DNA from: Acidobacteriota bacterium
Lineage (GTDB): Bacteria; Acidobacteriota; Vicinamibacteria; Vicinamibacterales; UBA8438
Direction of reading: 5' to 3'
Assembly (NCBI GenBank): GCA_015659035.1
Contig: DQNS01000137.1
Location: 1 to 33,142, forward strand
Length of the DNA stretch: 33,142 nt
Part shown: piece after piece, positions 2,865 through 32,975 of the stretch
Numbering within the stretch: the stretch's first letter is position 1
Layout: every line of letters starts with the position of its first letter
The notes under the pieces: model-generated
What the model saw: the letters and a program-made list of their open reading frames with translations, nothing else
The model's database searches: none
What the model was told of the DNA's origin: nothing
Translations under genes and position numbers: made by a program

Positions 2865-3776
2865 CTAGCTGGATGCGGCCGATTTGAGGTGGGGCGTGAT
2901 GCCGAGCGCATCGAGCACCTGGACGATCTGGGCGAGCGAGTCGGGTCGCGGCGGGACCATCGGCAGACGATAGTGAAGCTCGAGCAGCCCGAGATGCGCC
3001 ATTGCCGCCTTGACCGGTATCGGGTTGGTCTCGATGAAGTTAACTTGCATCAACGGGAGGAGCCGGGTGTGGAGCTGACGGGCGGTGTCGAAGTCGCCGT
3101 TCAACGCCACCGACACCAGACGCGACATCTCCTCAGGCGCTTCGTTCGAGGCCACCGAGATGACACCCGAGCCGCCGACGGACAGGAGCGGCACCGTGAA
3201 CAGGTCGTCGCCCGAGAGCACGCTGAACCCGGTGGGGACCGCGCGACAGATCTCACACATCTGCGGCATGTTCGCCGAGGCCTCCTTGACCCCGACGATG
3301 TTCGGGATGTCGGCCAGTCGGCACAGCGTGCCGACGTCCACATTGCAGCCGGTGCGACCCGGCACGTTGTAGACCACGATCGGTAACGGCGTGCTCTCGG
3401 CGATCGCCCGGTAGTGCTGGTAGATACCCTCGGGGGTCGGTCTGTTGTAGTACGGGGTGACTGACAAGATGCCGTCCGCCCCGGCGCCTCGCATGTCGGC
3501 GACCAGATCGATCACGCCCCGAGTGTCGTAGCCGCCCGCGCCGGCGAGCACGGGCACCCGCCCGCCCGCCGTTTTCACGACCAGCTCCACCACCCGCCGC
3601 TGCTCGGCGCGCGAGAGGGTCGGGCTCTCGCCGGTGCTGCCGCACGGGACGAGGAAGTGGACGCCCGCGTCGATCTGGCGCGCCGCCAGACGCTGTACGG
3701 CTGGCTCGTCCACGGCCCCGTCGGCCGTGAACGGCGTTACCAGTGCCGTTCCACATCCGAACCAGTTCTCTGTCAT
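2865..3776 (-). CDS. dapA: 4-hydroxy-tetrahydrodipicolinate synthase
   Basis: A 303-aa TIM-barrel aldolase condensing pyruvate with aspartate semialdehyde, the first step committed to lysine/diaminopimelate. The Schiff-base lysine is K164 (VGVKEAS). Y136 and R141 (VVYNVPGRTG) and the S47-T48 pair of CGSTGES complete the active site, where many homologues have two threonines. The ATG at 3776 overlaps the dapB stop as ATGA, a typical coupling arrangement, so longer in-frame sequence reaching 4229 is read-through of dapB and is not used. Length matches the family (about 290-300 aa). It is the second enzyme gene of the operon after dapB and is followed by a 196-bp spacer before dapD. Confidence 0.95.
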   Translation of the reverse strand: MTENWFGCGTALVTPFTADGAVDEPAVQRLAARQIDAGVHFLVPCGSTGESPTLSRAEQRRVVELVVKTAGGRVPVLAGAGGYDTRGVIDLVADMRGAGADGILSVTPYYNRPTPEGIYQHYRAIAESTPLPIVVYNVPGRTGCNVDVGTLCRLADIPNIVGVKEASANMPQMCEICRAVPTGFSVLSGDDLFTVPLLSVGGSGVISVASNEAPEEMSRLVSVALNGDFDTARQLHTRLLPLMQVNFIETNPIPVKAAMAHLGLLELHYRLPMVPPRPDSLAQIVQVLDALGITPHLKSAASS

Positions 3777-4471
3777 CGCTCGTCTAGTCCGAGGACGTCG
3801 CGCATCGAGAACCATCCGTGCCGGCCCTGCACCCAGCGTGCCGCTTCGAGCGCGCCGCGCGCGAACGTGGCGCGGTCGCGCGTGGTGTGGGTCAGGGCGA
3901 TCGTCTCGCTCGGGCCGTCGAACCCGACCGTATGGGTGCCGGGCGCGGCACCGACTCGTGTCGACGCCATGTCGATGGTCCGGGCGTATCCGTGTCGCGC
4001 CATCTCCCGCTGCAGCGCGAGCGCGGTGCCCGAGGGGGCGTCGACCTTGGCGGCGTGGTGGACCTCGTGAATCCAGGCGCCGAATTCCTCGTGCGGCTCG
4101 AAGAGCCGCGCCGCGCGCGCGGCCAGGTCCAGGAACAGGTTGACCCCGAGGGAGAAGTTGGCGGCGGCAACCACGCCGATCCCGGCGTCCTCTACGATCT
4201 TCCGCATTGCGCGCTCTTCGGCCACCCACCCGGTGGTGCCGACTACGAGGTTGACCCCATGCTCCGCCAGTCGGGGCAGGGTGTCGACCACGGCGTCGGC
4301 GGTCGAGAAGTCGATGGCCACATCGACGTCGCGCACCCGAGCAGGCGTGATACCGGCGCCGGCATGGTTGTCGTCGATGTCGAGCCGCCCCGCCACCTCG
4401 AAGCCGTACGACTCACTGAGCTGGTCGACCAGCCTGCCCATCCGACCGTATCCGATCACGAGGAGACGCAT
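3773..4471 (-). CDS. dapB: 4-hydroxy-tetrahydrodipicolinate reductase
   Basis: A 232-aa NAD(P)H-dependent reductase making tetrahydrodipicolinate from the DapA product. The N-terminal Rossmann motif is VIGYGRMG (5-12). The nicotinamide-side loop is VVGTTGW (77-82). The catalytic part has NFSLGVN (105-111), the His pair EVHH (136-139), and K142 with DAPSGTA (144-150). It is somewhat shorter than the E. coli enzyme (273 aa), as in many shorter DapB forms. It starts 10 bp after the tandem-ACT gene stop and overlaps dapA by ATGA, so the three genes are almost certainly co-transcribed. Confidence 0.95.
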   Translation of the reverse strand: MRLLVIGYGRMGRLVDQLSESYGFEVAGRLDIDDNHAGAGITPARVRDVDVAIDFSTADAVVDTLPRLAEHGVNLVVGTTGWVAEERAMRKIVEDAGIGVVAAANFSLGVNLFLDLAARAARLFEPHEEFGAWIHEVHHAAKVDAPSGTALALQREMARHGYARTIDMASTRVGAAPGTHTVGFDGPSETIALTHTTRDRATFARGALEAARWVQGRHGWFSMRDVLGLDER

Positions 4472-25862: not shown

Positions 25863-25866
<4 letters not shown>

Positions 25867-26906
25867 AGGTTGGCCCCCCGTGTGGCGTGGGCGGCTGGAC
25901 CGGACTGCGCGCGCGACGATGCACGGCGGTTGCCGGTGCGCCGGCGTGTGCCGATCGTGGGTCGGGCGGAGACCGGCCGGGCCGCGGCGTCCCCTGTGCC
26001 GTTCTGGAGCAACGTGATGAATTCGGTGACCGCCGGGTTCAGTCGCCGATTGCGGCGATGCACGATGCTGAGCGGCCGGACCAGTGTCGGTTCCCCAGGC
26101 GGCAGGATGAACTGCGCCTGCACCAGCGTTTGCCGTTGCACCTCGCGTCGCAGTGTCGGTTCCGGCAGGACGGCGACCCCGGCGCCCTCGTCGACCGCTT
26201 GTTTGATCGTCTCGATGTTGTCGAACTCGGCGGTGACGTCGACCTCGACCGCGTATCGCCTGAGGAACCGGTCGACCTCGCGCCGGACCGGCAATTCACG
26301 GTCGAACGCCACGAATCGCTCCCCTGCCAGGTCGGCGGGGCGCACGCTGCGCTGGCCGTTCTGGTCAGGGGCCATCCGCGCGAACCGGTGCGTCGGCGGG
26401 CAGGCGACCACCATGAGCTGACGCTTCCAGGGAATGGCGGTGAGCTCCCGGCCGGGCGTGACGAAGGACATGAGCCCCAGGTCGGACTGGTCGTTCAGAA
26501 TCCGCCGGGAGACCTCGTCCGGGTGCATGTACTCCAGGTCGATGCCGGCGCCCGGCACGAGGGCGCGAAACCGGTCCACATATTGGCTCAGGTCGTGCAG
26601 CCCCACCGAGTAGATCGCGGCCAGCCGGACGGTGTGACCTGAGGGGTTCTGCCGGCGGTGGAGCGCGTTCTCCAGCTCGTGATAGCGCTCGACGATCTCC
26701 TGGCAACCGGTGAAAAAAATCTTGCCTTCCGGTGTCAGCACCCAGGGTCGTTTCGAGCGGTCGATGAGCTGCGCGCCAAGGTGCTTCTCCAGCTGTCGCA
26801 CCGCCTGACTGGCGGCCGACTGAGTGACCGAGCTCGCCTCCGCCCCGCGGGAGAAGCTCTGATGGCGGACGACGTCGCAGAAGATGTTGAGCGTTTCAAT
26901 GTGCAT
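25863..26906 (-). CDS. LysR-type transcriptional regulator upstream of gltB
   Basis: A 347-aa regulator. Residues 1-60 are the LysR winged helix ([40 protein letters not shown]). Residues about 90-300 are the periplasmic-binding-protein-like effector domain. The last 45 residues are an extra Arg/Ala/Ser-rich tail that runs up to the gltB start and is not part of the usual LysR fold. The stop overlaps the gltB GTG. By analogy with GltC of Bacillus, which controls the gltAB genes, it could regulate gltBD, although GltC is divergent. It also lies next to the sulfur operon, so a CysB-like role is an alternative. The effector is unknown. Confidence 0.88.
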
Positions 26907-27644: not shown

Positions 27645-29927
27645 CTACGCTCTTCCGGCGACCGCCGGGGGGTTACCCGTCGGCGGGACCGCCGGCTGGC
27701 TCGCCAGCCGCGCCTGACAGGCGTGCGTGGCTTCCAGGAACAGCTGGGCCTCTTCGATGAGCTGACGGGCCGTGTCGCGGTCGGCCGGCCGTTCGCCCCG
27801 AGCGTGACGGCGGAAGAGATACTGCGCGAACTTCCCGCCGGCATACTTGTCGAAGAAGAGCTGGGTGTCGAAGAAGCGTGACCGGAACTCGGTGACGATC
27901 TGGTTCGGGTCGGCCGAGATGTCGATGAACTCCGTCTTGATCAACCCCTTGGCGGCCTGCAGCATCGCCCCGTAGGCCAGCGCGTCCGCGTGCGCGAAGT
28001 CGTCCGCCTCGAGTTGAAGCTGTGCTTCGAAGACCTGGGTCTCTGCGCCCACGAGGTCGAATTCGGTCAGGGAGACCACCTCCCCGGCGCATTCGCCCAC
28101 CCCCATGTCGCCGATGCCGAACTCGCGCGGGTCGCCCCAGTCCCGGTAGAAGTCCGGGCGTACGTCGTGGGGCGGGACCGTGGTCAGATCCTTCAGGGTT
28201 TCCCGTAGCGCCCGCTTGCCGACCCGTTTCGTGAAGTCGTAGAAGGTCTCCGCTCCCTGCCGGTCGTGCACGAAGCGGTCCGTGATGCGCCGGACCACCT
28301 CCGGGATGTTCTTCGCGGGCACCGCGCCGATGGCGAGCCCGTAGGCAGCGGCGTTGTCGACCCACTTGCCACCGAGCACCACCTGGAAGTGGGGCACGAT
28401 GTGACCCCCGACGTGACGGCTGACCCCGTAGAACCCTAGGTCGCAGATGTGATGTTGTCCGCACGAGTTGAAGCAGCCGCTGATCTTGATCCGCAGCTGC
28501 TTGACCGCCTCGTCCAGCGTCTCGATCTGCTCGCCGAGCCGGCGCTCGAGCTCGGCCGCCAGCCCTCGTGACGACGCGATACCCAACTTGCAGGTGTCTG
28601 TGCCGGGGCAGGCGGTGATGTCTGCGATCGACCCGGCCCCGGGTCTCGCCAGCCCGATCGACTCGAGCTCGCCATGAAGCGCCGGCAGATCCGACTCGCG
28701 CACCCACCGCAGCACGATGTTCTGTTCGACCGTGGTCCGGACGGTGTCACCAACGAACCGTCGCGCAACGTCCGCCAGCCGCCTGAACTGCCAGCCGCTC
28801 AGGTCGCCCAGCGGCAGACTCACGGTCGCCACCGCATAGCCGGGCTGACGCTGGCGATACACGTTGGTGCGCGCCCAGGCCTTGAAGGTCGGCGACCCCG
28901 ACTCGTCGTCGAGCGGGTGCCCGGTCTTGAGCGGCTGCTCGCCGTAGGCCGGCAGGCCATCCAGATAGGCGGTCCACCGGTCATCGTGCGCCAGCGCGGC
29001 TCGCTCCTCGCGCACCAGCCGCCGGAACTCGTCGAGGCCCAGCTGCGCCACCAGGAACTTGATGCGGGCGCGGGCGCGGTTGCGTTTCTCGCCCAGCCGC
29101 GCGAACACCCGGGCGATCGCCTGGAGGGTCGGCAGGATCTCGTCTTCGGTCATGAACGGCTCGAACGGCCGGGCCTGGTGAGGCACCGCCCCGAGCCCGC
29201 CTCCGACATACACCTCGAAGCCGCGTTGCTCGACGCCGTCCTCCTCGCGGGTCACCGCGATCGCGCCGAAGTCGTGCATGATGACGAGTCCGCAGGCGTG
29301 CTGTCGGCAGCCGGAGAACGCGATCTTGAACTTACGCCCGAAGTCTTGGACATCGGGGTGGCCCAGCAGGAAGCGCATCGACGCCTCGGCATGCGGTGTG
29401 ACATCGAAGCTCTCGTCGCGGCAGACTCCGGCGATCGGACAGGCGGTCACGTTGCGGACGGAGTTGCCGCACGCCTCGCGGGTCGTGATACCGGCCGCGG
29501 CGAGCCGCCGCATCAACGAGGGGGTGTCGTCGATGTGGACATAGTGGAGCTGGACGTCCTGACGGGTGGTGATGTGGCACACGCCGTCGCTGTATTCCTC
29601 GGACAGATCCGCGAGGGTGTCCATCTGGGCGGCCGTGAGCCCGCCGAACGGGAGCTTGATCCGCTGCATCCCGGGCGCGTCCCAGACGGTGTCGGGCCCC
29701 TTGGTCCGCCCGTTCGAGGGGAACGGCAGCATCTTGACGCCGGTGCCGTCGTTCCGTTGACCATTGTCGTAGCGCTGTCCATAGGCGCCGCGTCGCAAGC
29801 GCGTCTCGGCGAACACCTTGTCGTCGATCTTGCCCTGGCCTTTCAGGGCGAGCTGGCTCTCGTAGGTGTCGATCTCACGCGCCAGGTCCGCTGGCACGCT
29901 GTTGCCCAGTGCTTCCTTCCAGGTCAT
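27645..29927 (-). CDS. Siroheme nitrite/sulfite reductase, with C-terminal helical extension
   Basis: A 760-aa reductase of the siroheme/[4Fe-4S] family, reducing sulfite to sulfide (or nitrite to ammonia) with six electrons. The cofactor cysteines are C440 and C446 (ITACPGTDTCKLG) with C485 and C489 (SGCFNSCGQHH). The first half repeats the fold and also has cysteines in similar places: C163/C169 (TACPIAGVC) and C207/C212 (SGCRQHAC). Residues about 600-760 go beyond the usual end and form a helical, HEPN-like domain (AYGAMLQAAKGLIKTE, then FFDKYAGGKFAQYLF). The ATG at 29927 has aaggaagg upstream. Its siroheme-making genes lie just upstream and cysH further up, so sulfite is the favoured substrate. 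The electron donor is probably ferredoxin, as no flavin domain is attached. Confidence 0.9.
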   Translation of the reverse strand: MTWKEALGNSVPADLAREIDTYESQLALKGQGKIDDKVFAETRLRRGAYGQRYDNGQRNDGTGVKMLPFPSNGRTKGPDTVWDAPGMQRIKLPFGGLTAAQMDTLADLSEEYSDGVCHITTRQDVQLHYVHIDDTPSLMRRLAAAGITTREACGNSVRNVTACPIAGVCRDESFDVTPHAEASMRFLLGHPDVQDFGRKFKIAFSGCRQHACGLVIMHDFGAIAVTREEDGVEQRGFEVYVGGGLGAVPHQARPFEPFMTEDEILPTLQAIARVFARLGEKRNRARARIKFLVAQLGLDEFRRLVREERAALAHDDRWTAYLDGLPAYGEQPLKTGHPLDDESGSPTFKAWARTNVYRQRQPGYAVATVSLPLGDLSGWQFRRLADVARRFVGDTVRTTVEQNIVLRWVRESDLPALHGELESIGLARPGAGSIADITACPGTDTCKLGIASSRGLAAELERRLGEQIETLDEAVKQLRIKISGCFNSCGQHHICDLGFYGVSRHVGGHIVPHFQVVLGGKWVDNAAAYGLAIGAVPAKNIPEVVRRITDRFVHDRQGAETFYDFTKRVGKRALRETLKDLTTVPPHDVRPDFYRDWGDPREFGIGDMGVGECAGEVVSLTEFDLVGAETQVFEAQLQLEADDFAHADALAYGAMLQAAKGLIKTEFIDISADPNQIVTEFRSRFFDTQLFFDKYAGGKFAQYLFRRHARGERPADRDTARQLIEEAQLFLEATHACQARLASQPAVPPTGNPPAVAGRA

Positions 29928-29943
29928 CGTCGGCCCTTCCTTA

Positions 29944-30114
29944 GTGGCCCGTGTCATGAATACGGCCGCATTCGGTCGCCGATGCATCCCGCAAGCCCGG
30001 CGCTCGGCTTCTCGTCAGCGGGGTCGAATACTGCCGGTCTGCTCCCTCCTCGCGTCTTGCGGGGCGGGCGCCTCGACGTCCTCGGTGCATGGCCGTATTC
30101 ATGACGCGGGCCAC
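29944..30114. repeat. Repeat element A (MITE-like) between methyltransferase and sulfite reductase genes
   Basis: A 171-bp element with 24-bp terminal inverted repeats with one mismatch: 29944-29967 (gtggcccgtgtcatgaatac...) and 30091-30114. The right end lies immediately next to the stop codon of the methyltransferase gene (30115-30117). The 92 bp from 30023 to 30114 are about 88% identical to element B (31625-31716). It carries no gene. Its transcript would fold into a long stem between two operon cistrons. Confidence 0.8.
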
Positions 30115-30897
30115 CTACGATTCGGCGGCGCCGGTCGCCACGTCGACCGGCTCGTCGGTTTGAGGCGCAGCTTCGCTAAGCACCGCGTGCAGATTGACGA
30201 CGTCCCCGATGACGATCGTGCCGGGTGCGTCGGCATCGGTTGCGCCCGGTGCCGTCCCCAGGTGTCCTAGGGTGCCGACCCACGTGCGCGCGCGTGGTGT
30301 CGCCGCCGCGAACACGACGGCGGCGGCCGTGTCGGCGGGCCACCCGCGTTCGATCAGACAGGCCGCGACCGCACCGCGGTGCGCCAGCCCCATCAGCACG
30401 ATGACCGTCAGCGTCCCCGGGTCGAGCGAGCTCAGCACCGGTCGAAAGCTCGACTCGTCGTGCCCCGACACGACGACGAATCCCGAGGCCAGCCCGCGGT
30501 GGGTGACCGGGATCCCGGCCAACGCCGGCGCGGCGACCGCCGTCGTCAGGCCCTGCACCACCTCGAACGGGACACCGGCTGTTTGAAGCGCGAGCGCTTC
30601 TTCGCCACCGCGGCCGAGCACATACGGGTCACCACATTTCAGCCGCACCACGCGGCGTCCCCGGCGCGCCGCTCGCACCATGACCCGGGTGATCGTGTCC
30701 TGACGCACCGACCGGCGGCCGGCGCGCTTGCCGACCGAGAACCGTTGCGCTCGGTCGGCGAGGGCGACCACCTCGGGGGCCACCAGTGCGTCATAGAGCA
30801 CCAGGTCGGCCGCCCGGAGGCGGTCGAGTGCCCGGATGGTCAGGAGGTCCGGGTCTCCGGGCCCGGCGCCGACAAGCGAGACGAATCCCTTGGTCAT
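30115..30897 (-). CDS. cobA: Uroporphyrinogen-III C-methyltransferase
   Basis: A 260-aa SAM-dependent methyltransferase making precorrin-2, the first step from uroporphyrinogen III to siroheme. Motifs: SLVGAGPGDPDLLTIRAL (7-24), VVRLKCGDPYVLGRGGEE (83-100) and VVQGLTTAVAAPALAGIPVT (113-132), followed by HRG. There is no dehydrogenase/chelatase domain; that is encoded by the gene just before it (8-bp gap), so the CysG functions are split. The ATG start is at 30897. The last 25 residues, rich in Ala/Asp/Glu, are likely flexible. Placed next to sulfite reductase, it should serve siroheme rather than cobalamin production. Confidence 0.93.
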   Translation of the reverse strand: MTKGFVSLVGAGPGDPDLLTIRALDRLRAADLVLYDALVAPEVVALADRAQRFSVGKRAGRRSVRQDTITRVMVRAARRGRRVVRLKCGDPYVLGRGGEEALALQTAGVPFEVVQGLTTAVAAPALAGIPVTHRGLASGFVVVSGHDESSFRPVLSSLDPGTLTVIVLMGLAHRGAVAACLIERGWPADTAAAVVFAAATPRARTWVGTLGHLGTAPGATDADAPGTIVIGDVVNLHAVLSEAAPQTDEPVDVATGAAES

Positions 30898-30905
30898 CAC
30901 GACTG

Positions 30906-31478
30906 CTACCGATCTGCGTAGAGACCAGCCAGCGCGCGTAAGAGCAGTGGCCGCCGCTGGTCCATCGGCACGCCGGTGAGGGTCCACTCGGCGCGCTGGT
31001 CTCGGGCGACCGACATCCACCGCTCCACCTCCGCCTCGGGCAGCAGCGTCTCGAGCGCCTGGCGGATGAGCCCGGCGAGCGCCGGCGCCCGGCCGTCGGT
31101 CGAGATCGCCACCGTCACGCCGCCGCGGCGCACCACGCCTCCGAGATAGACGCTGGCGTGCTGCGGGTCGTCCACGGCGTTGACGAAGACGCGCCGGGTC
31201 TGGGCCGCCTCCGCCACGGCGCGGTTGACCGCGCGTGGCGCGGCCGCCACCGCCAGCCACGCGTCGTCGAGGTCGGACGCCTCGAAGGGACGGCGGCGTA
31301 TCGTCACCCCGCTCCCGGCGATCTCCGGCGTCACCTCAGGCGCGACCACCGTGACCCGAGCGTCGGCATCGAGCAAGGCGCGTAGCTTGGCGGTCGCGAC
31401 CGATCCGCCCCCGACGATGACGACGGCACGGTCGGCCAGCTTCAGGAACACCGGGAACAGAGGTGCAGCCGCGCTCAT
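30906..31478 (-). CDS. Precorrin-2 dehydrogenase/sirohydrochlorin ferrochelatase (CysG N-terminal/Met8 type)
   Basis: A 190-aa bifunctional enzyme that oxidises precorrin-2 with NAD and inserts iron to make siroheme. The NAD motif is AVVIVGGGSVATAKLRALL (18-36). NAVDDP in the middle holds the expected catalytic aspartate, and GRAPALAGLIRQ follows. The C-terminal helical part is short. The ATG at 31478 gives MSAAAPLFPVFLKL, the usual beginning; a GTG at 31493 would add five residues. It is separated from cysH by a 238-bp gap holding repeat element B, and from the methyltransferase by 8 bp. A matching protein in Bacillus is YlnF/SirC. Confidence 0.9.
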   Translation of the reverse strand: MSAAAPLFPVFLKLADRAVVIVGGGSVATAKLRALLDADARVTVVAPEVTPEIAGSGVTIRRRPFEASDLDDAWLAVAAAPRAVNRAVAEAAQTRRVFVNAVDDPQHASVYLGGVVRRGGVTVAISTDGRAPALAGLIRQALETLLPEAEVERWMSVARDQRAEWTLTGVPMDQRRPLLLRALAGLYADR

Positions 31479-31551
31479 GTCGTGTCCCGCCACGTGGTTC
31501 GCGAAATGACTTCCGGGCGGCCGAGCTCGCTGCCCATCGGGACTGCGCGAG

Positions 31552-31716
31552 GCTTAGGGCCCACGCAAGAACCACTTCCCATTTTCGGCCGCCGCTGCAT
31601 CCCGTCTGGCGGCGTTGCTCGTCGGTCGAATACTGCCCGTTTGCTCCCTCCTCGCGCCTTGCGGAGCGAGCGCCTCGACGCCCTCGGTGCGTGGCCGCAT
31701 TTATGACACGGACCAC
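31552..31716. repeat. Repeat element B, related to element A, directly after the cysH stop
   Basis: The 92 bp from 31625 to 31716 match element A at about 88%, mostly transitions, and the similarity continues leftwards with gaps to cttaggggccc-like sequence at about 31552. The right end abuts the cysH stop codon (31717-31719) with zero bases between, as in element A. The left terminal repeat has decayed, so the copy is no longer a good hairpin. No gene inside; the short open frames in it are the same spurious peptides as in element A. Confidence 0.75.
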
Positions 31717-32466
31717 TCAGTAGCTCGGACCGGCATTCTGCTCGAGTGGTGCGGCGACCATCGGCGCATGAAGGCCGCACTCGGTCTTGGGCGCGCCACG
31801 CCAGCGACCCGCCCGGTCGTCCTCGCCCACGGCCGCGGCGCTGGTGCAGGGCAGACACCCGATGCTCGGGTACCCACGGTCGTGCAGCGGGTTGTAGGGC
31901 ACGTCGTTCTGGAGCAGATGAGACCAAACCTCCTGCTTGGTCCAGCGGACGAGCGGGTTCACCTTGCCAAGACCGAACTTCGCGTCCCACTCGACCGCGA
32001 GCGCGCCGGCGCGGCCCGCCGTCTGGTCCCGTCGGATGGCGGTGATCCACGCGTCGAACCCGCTGAGCTCCGCCACGAGCGGGCTGACCTTGCGCAGCTC
32101 GCAACACCGATCGGCGTGGCGGGTCCAGAGCTCAGCGCCGTGGGTCGCCGCCTGCTCATCGACGGTATGCTCGGGGTGCACGCCGCGGATCGTGAGCGCG
32201 TATCGTTCCTCGAGACGCCGCCAGAGGTCGTAGGTCTCCGGAAACAGGAGCCCCGTATCGAGCGTGAAGATGTCTATCTGGAGACGATGCCGCCCGATCA
32301 GGTCGATCAACAGGCAGCCCTCCGCGCCGAACCCCGTGGCGAAGGTCAGCCGTGACCCGAACCCGTCGGCGGCCCACTGCAGGATCTCGAGCGGGGTCGC
32401 CGTCTCGAGCGCCCGGCCCGATTCGGCCAGCTCGGCGGGGTCGGATCGCGTGAGGATCGCAGTCAT
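31717..32466 (-). CDS. cysH: Assimilatory adenylylsulfate (APS) reductase, [4Fe-4S] type
   Basis: A 249-aa reductase turning APS into sulfite and AMP using thioredoxin. The cluster-binding pairs C121-C122 (DRCCELRK) and C204-C207 (IGCLPCT) are present, which marks the APS-specific form; PAPS reductases lack them. The catalytic cysteine is C230 in KTECGLH. The nucleotide site includes FATGFGAEG (42-50) and IFTLDTGLLFPET (66-78). ATG at 32466 with aggag upstream; in-frame sequence back to 32907 is not used. It is the second gene of the operon, 17 bp after DUF2061. ATP sulfurylase genes are not in the window. The stop codon is followed immediately by repeat element B. Confidence 0.95.
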   Translation of the reverse strand: MTAILTRSDPAELAESGRALETATPLEILQWAADGFGSRLTFATGFGAEGCLLIDLIGRHRLQIDIFTLDTGLLFPETYDLWRRLEERYALTIRGVHPEHTVDEQAATHGAELWTRHADRCCELRKVSPLVAELSGFDAWITAIRRDQTAGRAGALAVEWDAKFGLGKVNPLVRWTKQEVWSHLLQNDVPYNPLHDRGYPSIGCLPCTSAAAVGEDDRAGRWRGAPKTECGLHAPMVAAPLEQNAGPSY

Positions 32467-32483: not shown

Positions 32484-32735
32484 CTACGCCTCCGCTGGTC
32501 CGGTCGTACTGCCAGCGAGGCGGTCGATTGGTTGGCGCCCGACGTTCAGCCGATTCCAGAGTCGCTCGTGGACGAAGTAGAGCGCTATCTTGGTGACGGC
32601 CTCGATCATCCCGACGGTCACCGCGATGCCCAACTCGCCCGTAAACGCGTAGACCAGCAGCGCCGTGGTCAACGTGGCGATGATTCGCCACGAGACCGCC
32701 TTGAGCACCGAGCGCATCGGCGATTCTTTGAACAT
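32484..32735 (-). CDS. DUF2061 family small membrane protein
   Basis: An 83-aa protein with two hydrophobic segments, about residues 15-31 (RIIATLTTALLVYAFTG) and 35-55 (IAVTVGMIEAVTKIALYFVH), ending in HERLWNRL. The pattern AVSWRIIATLTT...GMIEAVTKIALYFVHERLW is the DUF2061 signature. Members are often found beside or fused to sulfate-assimilation genes, and their function is unknown. The ATG at 32735 has agagga upstream; further upstream in-frame sequence would run into the terminator. It is the first full gene behind the polycysteine leader and terminator, 17 bp before cysH, so it should respond to cysteine supply. Transport or membrane positioning of the pathway is a guess. Confidence 0.8.
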   Translation of the reverse strand: MFKESPMRSVLKAVSWRIIATLTTALLVYAFTGELGIAVTVGMIEAVTKIALYFVHERLWNRLNVGRQPIDRLAGSTTGPAEA

Positions 32736-32778: not shown

Positions 32779-32812
32779 AAAAAAAGCCCGGGGGCTACGT
32801 GGCTCCCGGGCT
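32779..32812 (-). terminator. Intrinsic terminator of the cysteine attenuator
   Basis: On the minus strand, agcccggg pairs with cccgggct (32812-32805 with 32792-32785), with a partly paired loop, directly followed by seven Us (32785-32779). It lies after the leader ORF stop (32853) and 44 bp before the DUF2061 start, so it can stop transcription ahead of the operon. Confidence 0.85.
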
Positions 32813-32892
32813 TCTGGTCTCGCGCCGTTCTTGTCAGTCTGTGTTGTGATACCTAGCGCGTCACGACCGTCAGCTTGGGGGCCCGGAGGGCC
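32801..32892 (-). promoter_or_regulatory. Alternative hairpins of the attenuator (protector and antiterminator)
   Basis: Protector hairpin: ggccc (32892-32888) with gggcc (32884-32880), loop of three, starting 5 nt after the last Cys codon. Antiterminator: ctccgggc (32888-32881) can pair with gcccgggag (32811-32803), the terminator's 5' arm, with a 1-nt bulge. The two are mutually exclusive, as needed for attenuation. Confidence 0.6.
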
Positions 32893-32939
32893 TCCATACA
32901 ACAGCAACAGTTAGCGGCTCGGGCGCGGATGATCACAAC
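32843..32939 (-). promoter_or_regulatory. Long-range inverted repeat enclosing the leader ORF
   Basis: gttgtgat at the leader start (32939-32932 on the minus strand) is perfectly complementary to atcacaac just after the leader stop (32850-32843). Pairing would cover the GTG start codon. Confidence 0.5.
32853..32936 (-). CDS. Polycysteine leader peptide of the sulfur operon (27 aa)
   Basis: Short frame from GTG 32936 to TAG 32853, sequence VIIRARAANCCCCMEALRAP followed by KLTVVTR. Four consecutive cysteine codons (TGT TGC TGT TGT, 32909-32898) sit ten codons in. It precedes an intrinsic terminator and a sulfate-assimilation operon, so it is best read as a ribosome-stalling sensor of charged Cys-tRNA rather than a working protein. 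Polycysteine leader ORFs ahead of sulfur genes are known in mycobacteria. The predicted promoter (TTGACG-18-TACAAA) places the transcript start 3-4 nt before the GTG, so translation may be near-leaderless; a gaagg lies before it but inside the promoter-start interval. Longer in-frame sequence reaching 33056 would cross the promoter and is rejected. Confidence 0.75.
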   Translation of the reverse strand: MIIRARAANCCCCMEALRAPKLTVVTR

Positions 32940-32945
32940 CCCTTC

Positions 32946-32975
32946 TTTGTACCCCGCTGAGGCGGGATTCGTCAA
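32946..32975 (-). promoter_or_regulatory. Promoter of the sulfur operon with an internal dyad
   Basis: TTGACG (32975-32970) and TACAAA (32951-32946), 18 bp apart. The spacer contains a dyad, cccgc-tgag-gcggg (32953-32966), which could be a repressor site overlapping the promoter. Confidence 0.55.

Follow-up and report, generated by a model that had tools for sequence, protein, structure and literature searches.

A conserved polycysteine leader predicted to attenuate transcription of sulfate-assimilation genes in Acidobacteriota

The sulfate-reduction and siroheme operon on a 33,142-nucleotide stretch of Acidobacteriota DNA (contig DQNS01000137.1; here called the window) is preceded by a short leader that is best read as a ribosome-mediated transcription attenuator sensing charged tRNA-Cys, to which we assign a probability of roughly 0.87. 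Beyond the anatomy itself, we found the open reading frame (ORF), its Cys run, the spacing of the promoter, the terminator, and the register of pairing to be conserved, and the leader to be associated with sulfur genes. Judged by these features, the operon would very probably be switched on only when the cell is short of cysteine, and the leader combines the sequence-testable features of a classical amino acid attenuator, namely end-product codons, a terminator, a putative antiterminator, and pathway genes. Apparently, this is a regulator of ordinary principle that is undescribed in Acidobacteriota and far broader than a single locus.

The window leader belongs to a 3.18 Mb Vicinamibacterales-type MAG and lies on the minus strand, where the upstream gene ends at approximately 33053. 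Two predicted promoter elements with an 18-nt spacer, TTGACG (−35; 32970..32975, called from the sequence and the conservation of TTGAC) and TACAAA (−10; 32946..32951), precede an upstream ORF (uORF) of 27 codons, which runs from GTG at 32936 to TAG at 32853 (32853..32936; VIIRARAANCCCCMEALRAPKLTVVTR) and holds the putative sensor, four consecutive Cys codons (TGT TGC TGT TGT; 32898..32909), of which relatives have three to eight. Hairpin 1:2 (32866..32903) has a core, GGCCC-TCC-GGGCC (32892-32880, with GGCCC at 32892-32888 and GGGCC at 32884-32880), that begins 5 nt past the Cys codons, and an extension in which the last two Cys codons pair with a GCTGACG stretch. The predicted antiterminator strand 2 (32857..32884; GGGCCCCCAAGCTGACGGTCGTGACGCG) lies fully within the uORF and pairs with strand 3 (32801..32824, with the end at approximately 32801; CGCGAGACCAGAAGCCCGGGAGCC), which overlaps the 5′ arm of intrinsic terminator 3:4 (32779..32813). 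The terminator comprises a stem (32813-32784), folding at −20.6 kcal/mol, and a U-tract of seven Us (32785-32779), and the ATG of the DUF2061 gene (32735) follows 44 bp beyond the T-run. A preliminary description of this DNA had already reported the 27-codon ORF with its four Cys codons, the small hairpin 5 nt after them, the strong terminator with seven Us, and the 44-bp distance to the first gene, all of which are present as described; it included neither the promoter nor the likely leaderless start.

The composition of the operon, given there as DUF2061-cysH-siroheme-sulfite reductase, was confirmed by Pfam. The first structural gene encodes an 83-aa DUF2061 membrane protein (32484..32735, minus strand as for all genes of the operon; PF09834, E 7e-21) and has AGAGGA ahead of its ATG. 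It is followed by cysH for a PAPS/APS reductase (31717..32466; PF01507, E 1e-42), a gene for the siroheme synthase N-terminal domain (cysG-N, precorrin-2 dehydrogenase; 30906..31493; PF13241, PF14824), a uroporphyrinogen-III methyltransferase (SUMT) gene with an uncertain start codon (30115..30897; PF00590), and a gene for sulfite reductase with NIR_SIR domains (27645..29987; PF01077, PF03460). The named relatives of CysH are from Vicinamibacterales/Acidobacteria MAGs, the closest being 88% identical, and no relative of CysH was found in viral contigs.

That the leader is more than a chance arrangement follows from conservation and comparison with relatives, and hardly from the window sequence alone. 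In single-sequence folding, the window leader RNA was as stable as its shuffles (z −0.52), its own antiterminator duplex was not better than shuffles (p 0.23), and runs of four TGY codons occurred at chance in the genome (35 matches vs 39 for the reversed pattern), with the leader anatomy found at only this locus among the 30 of the 35 matches examined. Small ORFs encoding CCC (≤45 codons), sought at 80 cysH loci from genome contigs, were 29-fold denser in sense-strand sequence ahead of cysH (43 in 271 kb, 0.159/kb) than in the controls taken from these loci (5 in 903 kb, 0.0055/kb). Leader peptides of the closest relatives (e.g., VIIRARAACCCCCTEAPWAPELTVQSR) and of more distant ones (MCCCCTVAREVPGADSGPAFALLTL or MCACCCTRARRVPALPVLPN) keep the Cys run as other residues turn over. 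The preliminary description had proposed a Cys-codon attenuator controlling the operon and had named beforehand the lack of a Cys run or terminator in related genomes, or of codon-level conservation of the ORF, as evidence against it; related genomes keep the Cys run, the ORF, and the terminator.

A covariance model (R1) built from 20 leaders (alignment A2) matched 99 of the 193 genomes of the class, in 66 of 104 genera, with no match in about half of the genomes searched; the window genome has a single match. When 396 genomes were drawn from across the phylum, R1 matched 17 at E ≤ 1e-4, all within the class, and this draw serves as a specificity control. Among 70 matches inspected, 62 had at least three consecutive in-frame Cys codons, a count that is partly built in because R1 itself contains two, and the remainder had mostly interrupted Cys clusters; start codons, present in nearly all of the 62, stop codons, and the promoter are independent of these built-in codons, as is the density test for CCC ORFs. 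Sulfur assimilation or cysteine synthesis accounted for 42 of the 43 first genes identified behind the leader, a tally that omits matches for which picking the longest ORF gave a first gene in the wrong frame: 22 encoded CysD/CysH (PAPS-reductase superfamily), 15 siroheme synthase (CysG), four TauE/SafE, one a PALP (cysteine synthase-like) protein, and one a one-Cys peroxiredoxin. The first gene varies behind a retained leader, from DUF2061 in the nearest relatives to cysH, TauE, cysD, and cysG, a pattern in which the leader travels with the pathway and not with any single gene. The peroxiredoxin case (L211:2428-3057) has a match with two Cys codons 36 nt ahead of the 1-Cys peroxiredoxin gene, which may extend the regulon to redox defence.

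Upstream of the Cys run, TTGAC was present in 63 of 70 leaders, whereas 3 of 70 control windows had it. In 41 of these 63 leaders, the −10 box is followed at 7–10 nt by the first in-frame start codon, and start codons at offsets of 6–10 nt share the frame of the Cys run 49 times and lie out of frame eight times; in the window, the GTG is 9 nt past the −10 box. The usual distance from −10 box to +1 is 6–8 nt. Given this spacing and the start codon offsets, a 5′ UTR of approximately 0–4 nt is predicted, with the window transcription start site (TSS) near 32939, about 3 nt before the GTG, so the uORF is probably leaderless or near-leaderless. Leaderless genes have been computed at approximately 13% in Acidobacteria (PMC3160421). 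Codon choice in the leaders also differs from that of the genes behind them: TGT made up 117 of 161 Cys codons in leaders (73%) vs 28 of 202 in the cysH genes at these loci (14%), a bias (Fisher p 5e-31, overstated given that the leaders are related) that runs counter to the GC-rich background. Possible reasons for the preference are that TGT is the slower-read or the less-pairing codon.

RNA pairing is conserved in a long antiterminator register between strand 2 (32884-32857) and strand 3 (32824 to approximately 32801). Across the 20 leaders, 88.7% of cells were paired in this register, a level reached by one of 500 shuffles and falling to 18–47% when the register was slid; U-A to C-G compensatory changes were present, the best covarying pair being UA in eight, CG in six, and UG in four leaders. 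Over 33 leaders, the antiterminator duplex was also stronger than duplexes formed with a dinucleotide-shuffled strand 2 (mean z −2.0; as the sequences are related, pooled p-values overstate significance). Hairpin 1:2 was paired in 90.7% of cells in the 20 leaders, hairpin 1:2 and terminator 3:4 together in 87.9% across A2, and the terminator was present in all 33 leaders examined. The shorter pairing segment of the preliminary description (32888-32881; CTCCGGGC) exists at that position; its pairing across the 20 leaders, at 79.9%, was no better than that of shuffles (358 of 500 as high), and this 8-nt register is accordingly rejected, the longer one being conserved instead. The distance from the Cys run to the stop codon was 39–66 nt in the central 90% of leaders, compared with 13 to >700 nt in other frames, and the uORF therefore seems held to run over strand 2.

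Folding of the window leader before strand 4 exists gave antiterminator probabilities of 0.66 with a ribosome stalled at the Cys codons, 0.53 without a ribosome, and 0.16 when the ribosome had reached the stop codon. Across relatives, the ribosome-at-stop effect in the equilibrium model was mixed, and it was absent in many with a stop codon further on. For the protector-hairpin switch proposed earlier, hairpin 1:2 was not dominant in simple folding, and in the window a ribosome at the stop codon reduced antiterminator formation most. In the suggested comparison of folding with and without masked Cys codons, masking did not lower the terminator probability, so this comparison cannot decide the mechanism. 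In equilibrium folding of the full-length leader, the terminator prevails whether masked or not, and the switch must therefore be kinetic (co-transcriptional); in these models, equilibrium folding by itself does not show it.

Under the attenuator reading, transcription would start about 3 nt ahead of the GTG, and a ribosome would load at the very 5′ end of the transcript. With ample Cys-tRNA, it would pass the Cys codons to the stop codon, leaving strand 2 covered or folded in hairpin 1:2; with strand 2 occupied, strand 3 would pair with strand 4, and RNA polymerase would terminate before DUF2061-cysH. With scarce Cys-tRNA, the ribosome would stall on the Cys codons, and the freed strand 2 would pair with strand 3, a pairing that would prevent the terminator and allow the sulfate-reduction/siroheme operon to be transcribed. 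Translation of the uORF, the Cys-tRNA signal, termination and readthrough, and the way in which fluent translation blocks strand 2 are the steps that we infer.

Polycysteine uORFs could also act as they do in mycobacteria, by translation-level or Rho-linked control in which the advance of the ribosome would determine translation of the downstream gene or the access of Rho, with the hairpins playing a secondary part. The mycobacterial uORFs share the sensor, with polyCys runs in probable leaderless uORFs ahead of sulfur operons (PMC4633059, PMC1262725; PMC13236596), but we consider this explanation improbable for the Acidobacteriota leader: a strong intrinsic terminator with a U-tract stands between uORF and gene in 33 of 33 leaders, the conserved pairing overlaps the 5′ arm of that terminator, and the first genes begin past it with start regions of their own. 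It is still less probable that the terminator is constitutive or serves only to end a transcript from upstream, with another factor governing the operon and the small ORF incidental. A LysR-type gene (25863-26906) does follow the operon and could supply such a factor, and an upstream gene does end at approximately 33053; against this, promoter, uORF, and terminator are conserved jointly before differing first genes, and Cys runs are enriched 29-fold.

Within the peptide, conservation is highest in the Cys run, as would be expected if the Cys-rich product itself acted, for instance as a metal or redox binder. However, the remaining residues diverge freely and the run varies from three to eight in length, the 3′ half is conserved as nucleotide-level structure, and sulfur operons carry the ORF at their 5′ end, ahead of a terminator, so that a functional small protein is the most remote of the explanations weighed here.

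In mycobacteria, leaderless polycysteine uORFs lie upstream of cysA2 (Rv0815), Rv0485, and nirA (Shell et al. 2015, PMC4633059), with Cys codons near the uORF C-terminus and, in an earlier comparison, no conserved terminator hairpin (PMC1262725), and a 2026 paper terms the control translation attenuation (PMC13236596). The statement of the preliminary description that such leaders are known in actinobacteria is thus right (PMC4633059, PMC1262725), with the difference that they lack a conserved intrinsic terminator there. Alike in both phyla is a Cys-codon cluster in a short ORF at or near the transcript 5′ end (predicted for the leaders studied here) before sulfur/cysteine operons, a likeness seen in the arrangement; in Acidobacteriota, by contrast, the Cys codons sit closer to the N-terminus, the ORF continues over the antiterminator strand, and an intrinsic terminator follows. 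Because this terminator is always present, we do not file the Acidobacteriota leader under the mycobacterial type. Canestrari et al. 2020 (Mol Microbiol 114:93-108) reportedly also deals with the mycobacterial leaderless polycysteine uORFs.

Classical amino acid attenuators are of the Escherichia coli trp, his, and leu type. They share with the Acidobacteriota leader a leader peptide rich in the end product, mutually exclusive antiterminator and terminator (predicted here), and a biosynthetic operon downstream; unlike them, the Acidobacteriota uORF has a predicted start at the TSS instead of one led by a Shine-Dalgarno (SD) sequence, strand 2 lies inside the ORF and not after the stop codon, and the regulatory amino acid is cysteine. 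The uORFC-8-2 motif upstream of cysS in Rhodobacterales, for which ribosome-mediated attenuation has been proposed, similarly combines a uORF containing tandem Cys codons with an intrinsic terminator behind it (PMC8632094). However, it has two Cys codons, at positions 14-15 and inside the first stem, and occurs only before cysS and only in Rhodobacterales, whereas the Acidobacteriota leader has three to eight and precedes sulfate-assimilation genes. No Rfam 15 family, riboswitches and known leaders included, matched the leader at gathering score, and no description in Acidobacteria was found in a literature search that lacked most subscription journals. New here are the conserved promoter with a probable leaderless uORF start and the longer predicted antiterminator register.

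Outside the class, a Cys-rich uORF with a terminator was found in approximately 22 of 30 sulfite-reductase loci of Acidobacteriota, although in some the Cys codons number just two or three. Terriglobia-type leaders before sulfite reductase or cysG are unrelated in sequence (MCCCCCANVCSGAGGC, MNASRKSCCQCCFCCCPCLHTGMRKLLT) and likewise have Cys clusters, a hairpin, and a terminator. Five non-class leaders read closely keep the 1-2-3-4 complementarity with different letters, e.g., TTGCGCCA/TGGCGCAA and CTGGCG/CGCCAG. We see about even odds that a phylum-wide leaderless Cys attenuator is a principal control of Acidobacteriota sulfate assimilation, as one promoter-uORF-switch module placed before cysD, cysH, cysG, TauE, sulfite reductase, and cysteine-synthase genes, convergent on the mycobacterial sensor, coupled to intrinsic termination, and UGU-tuned. 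Acidobacteriota, which are widespread and mostly uncultured, would gain a concrete, testable sulfur regulon with a defined signal, and cysteine attenuation joined to a probable leaderless start would make a clean test of a 5′-loaded ribosome pacing RNA polymerase. Analogous leaders elsewhere in Acidobacteriota, complete genomes among them, may provide culturable test strains. Beyond the phylum, most other Myxococcales loci in a cysH-locus survey had no Cys-run ORF; in the Myxococcales record L084, cysH is preceded by two successive polyCys ORFs (3552-3623 and 3746-3877) with seven and eight Cys codons, and record L056, titled Planctomycetota, has CCCMC before TauE.

Several minor observations concern the operon itself. 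Only among the closest relatives does the DUF2061 gene head the sulfate-reduction operon, TauE/SafE taking this place in others, and the shared position hints at a role of DUF2061 in sulfite or sulfate transport. The LysR-type regulator gene at 25863-26906 lies on the same strand, downstream of the sulfite reductase gene, and in one relative (L013) a similar LysR reading frame immediately follows cysH. An intergenic repeat of 171 bp with 24-nt terminal inverted repeats (GTGGCCCGTGTCATGAATACGGCC), which looks like a MITE/REP-type element, has two copies inside the operon (29944-30114 and approximately 31583-31716), and a 93-nt part of it has approximately 40 matches in the genome.
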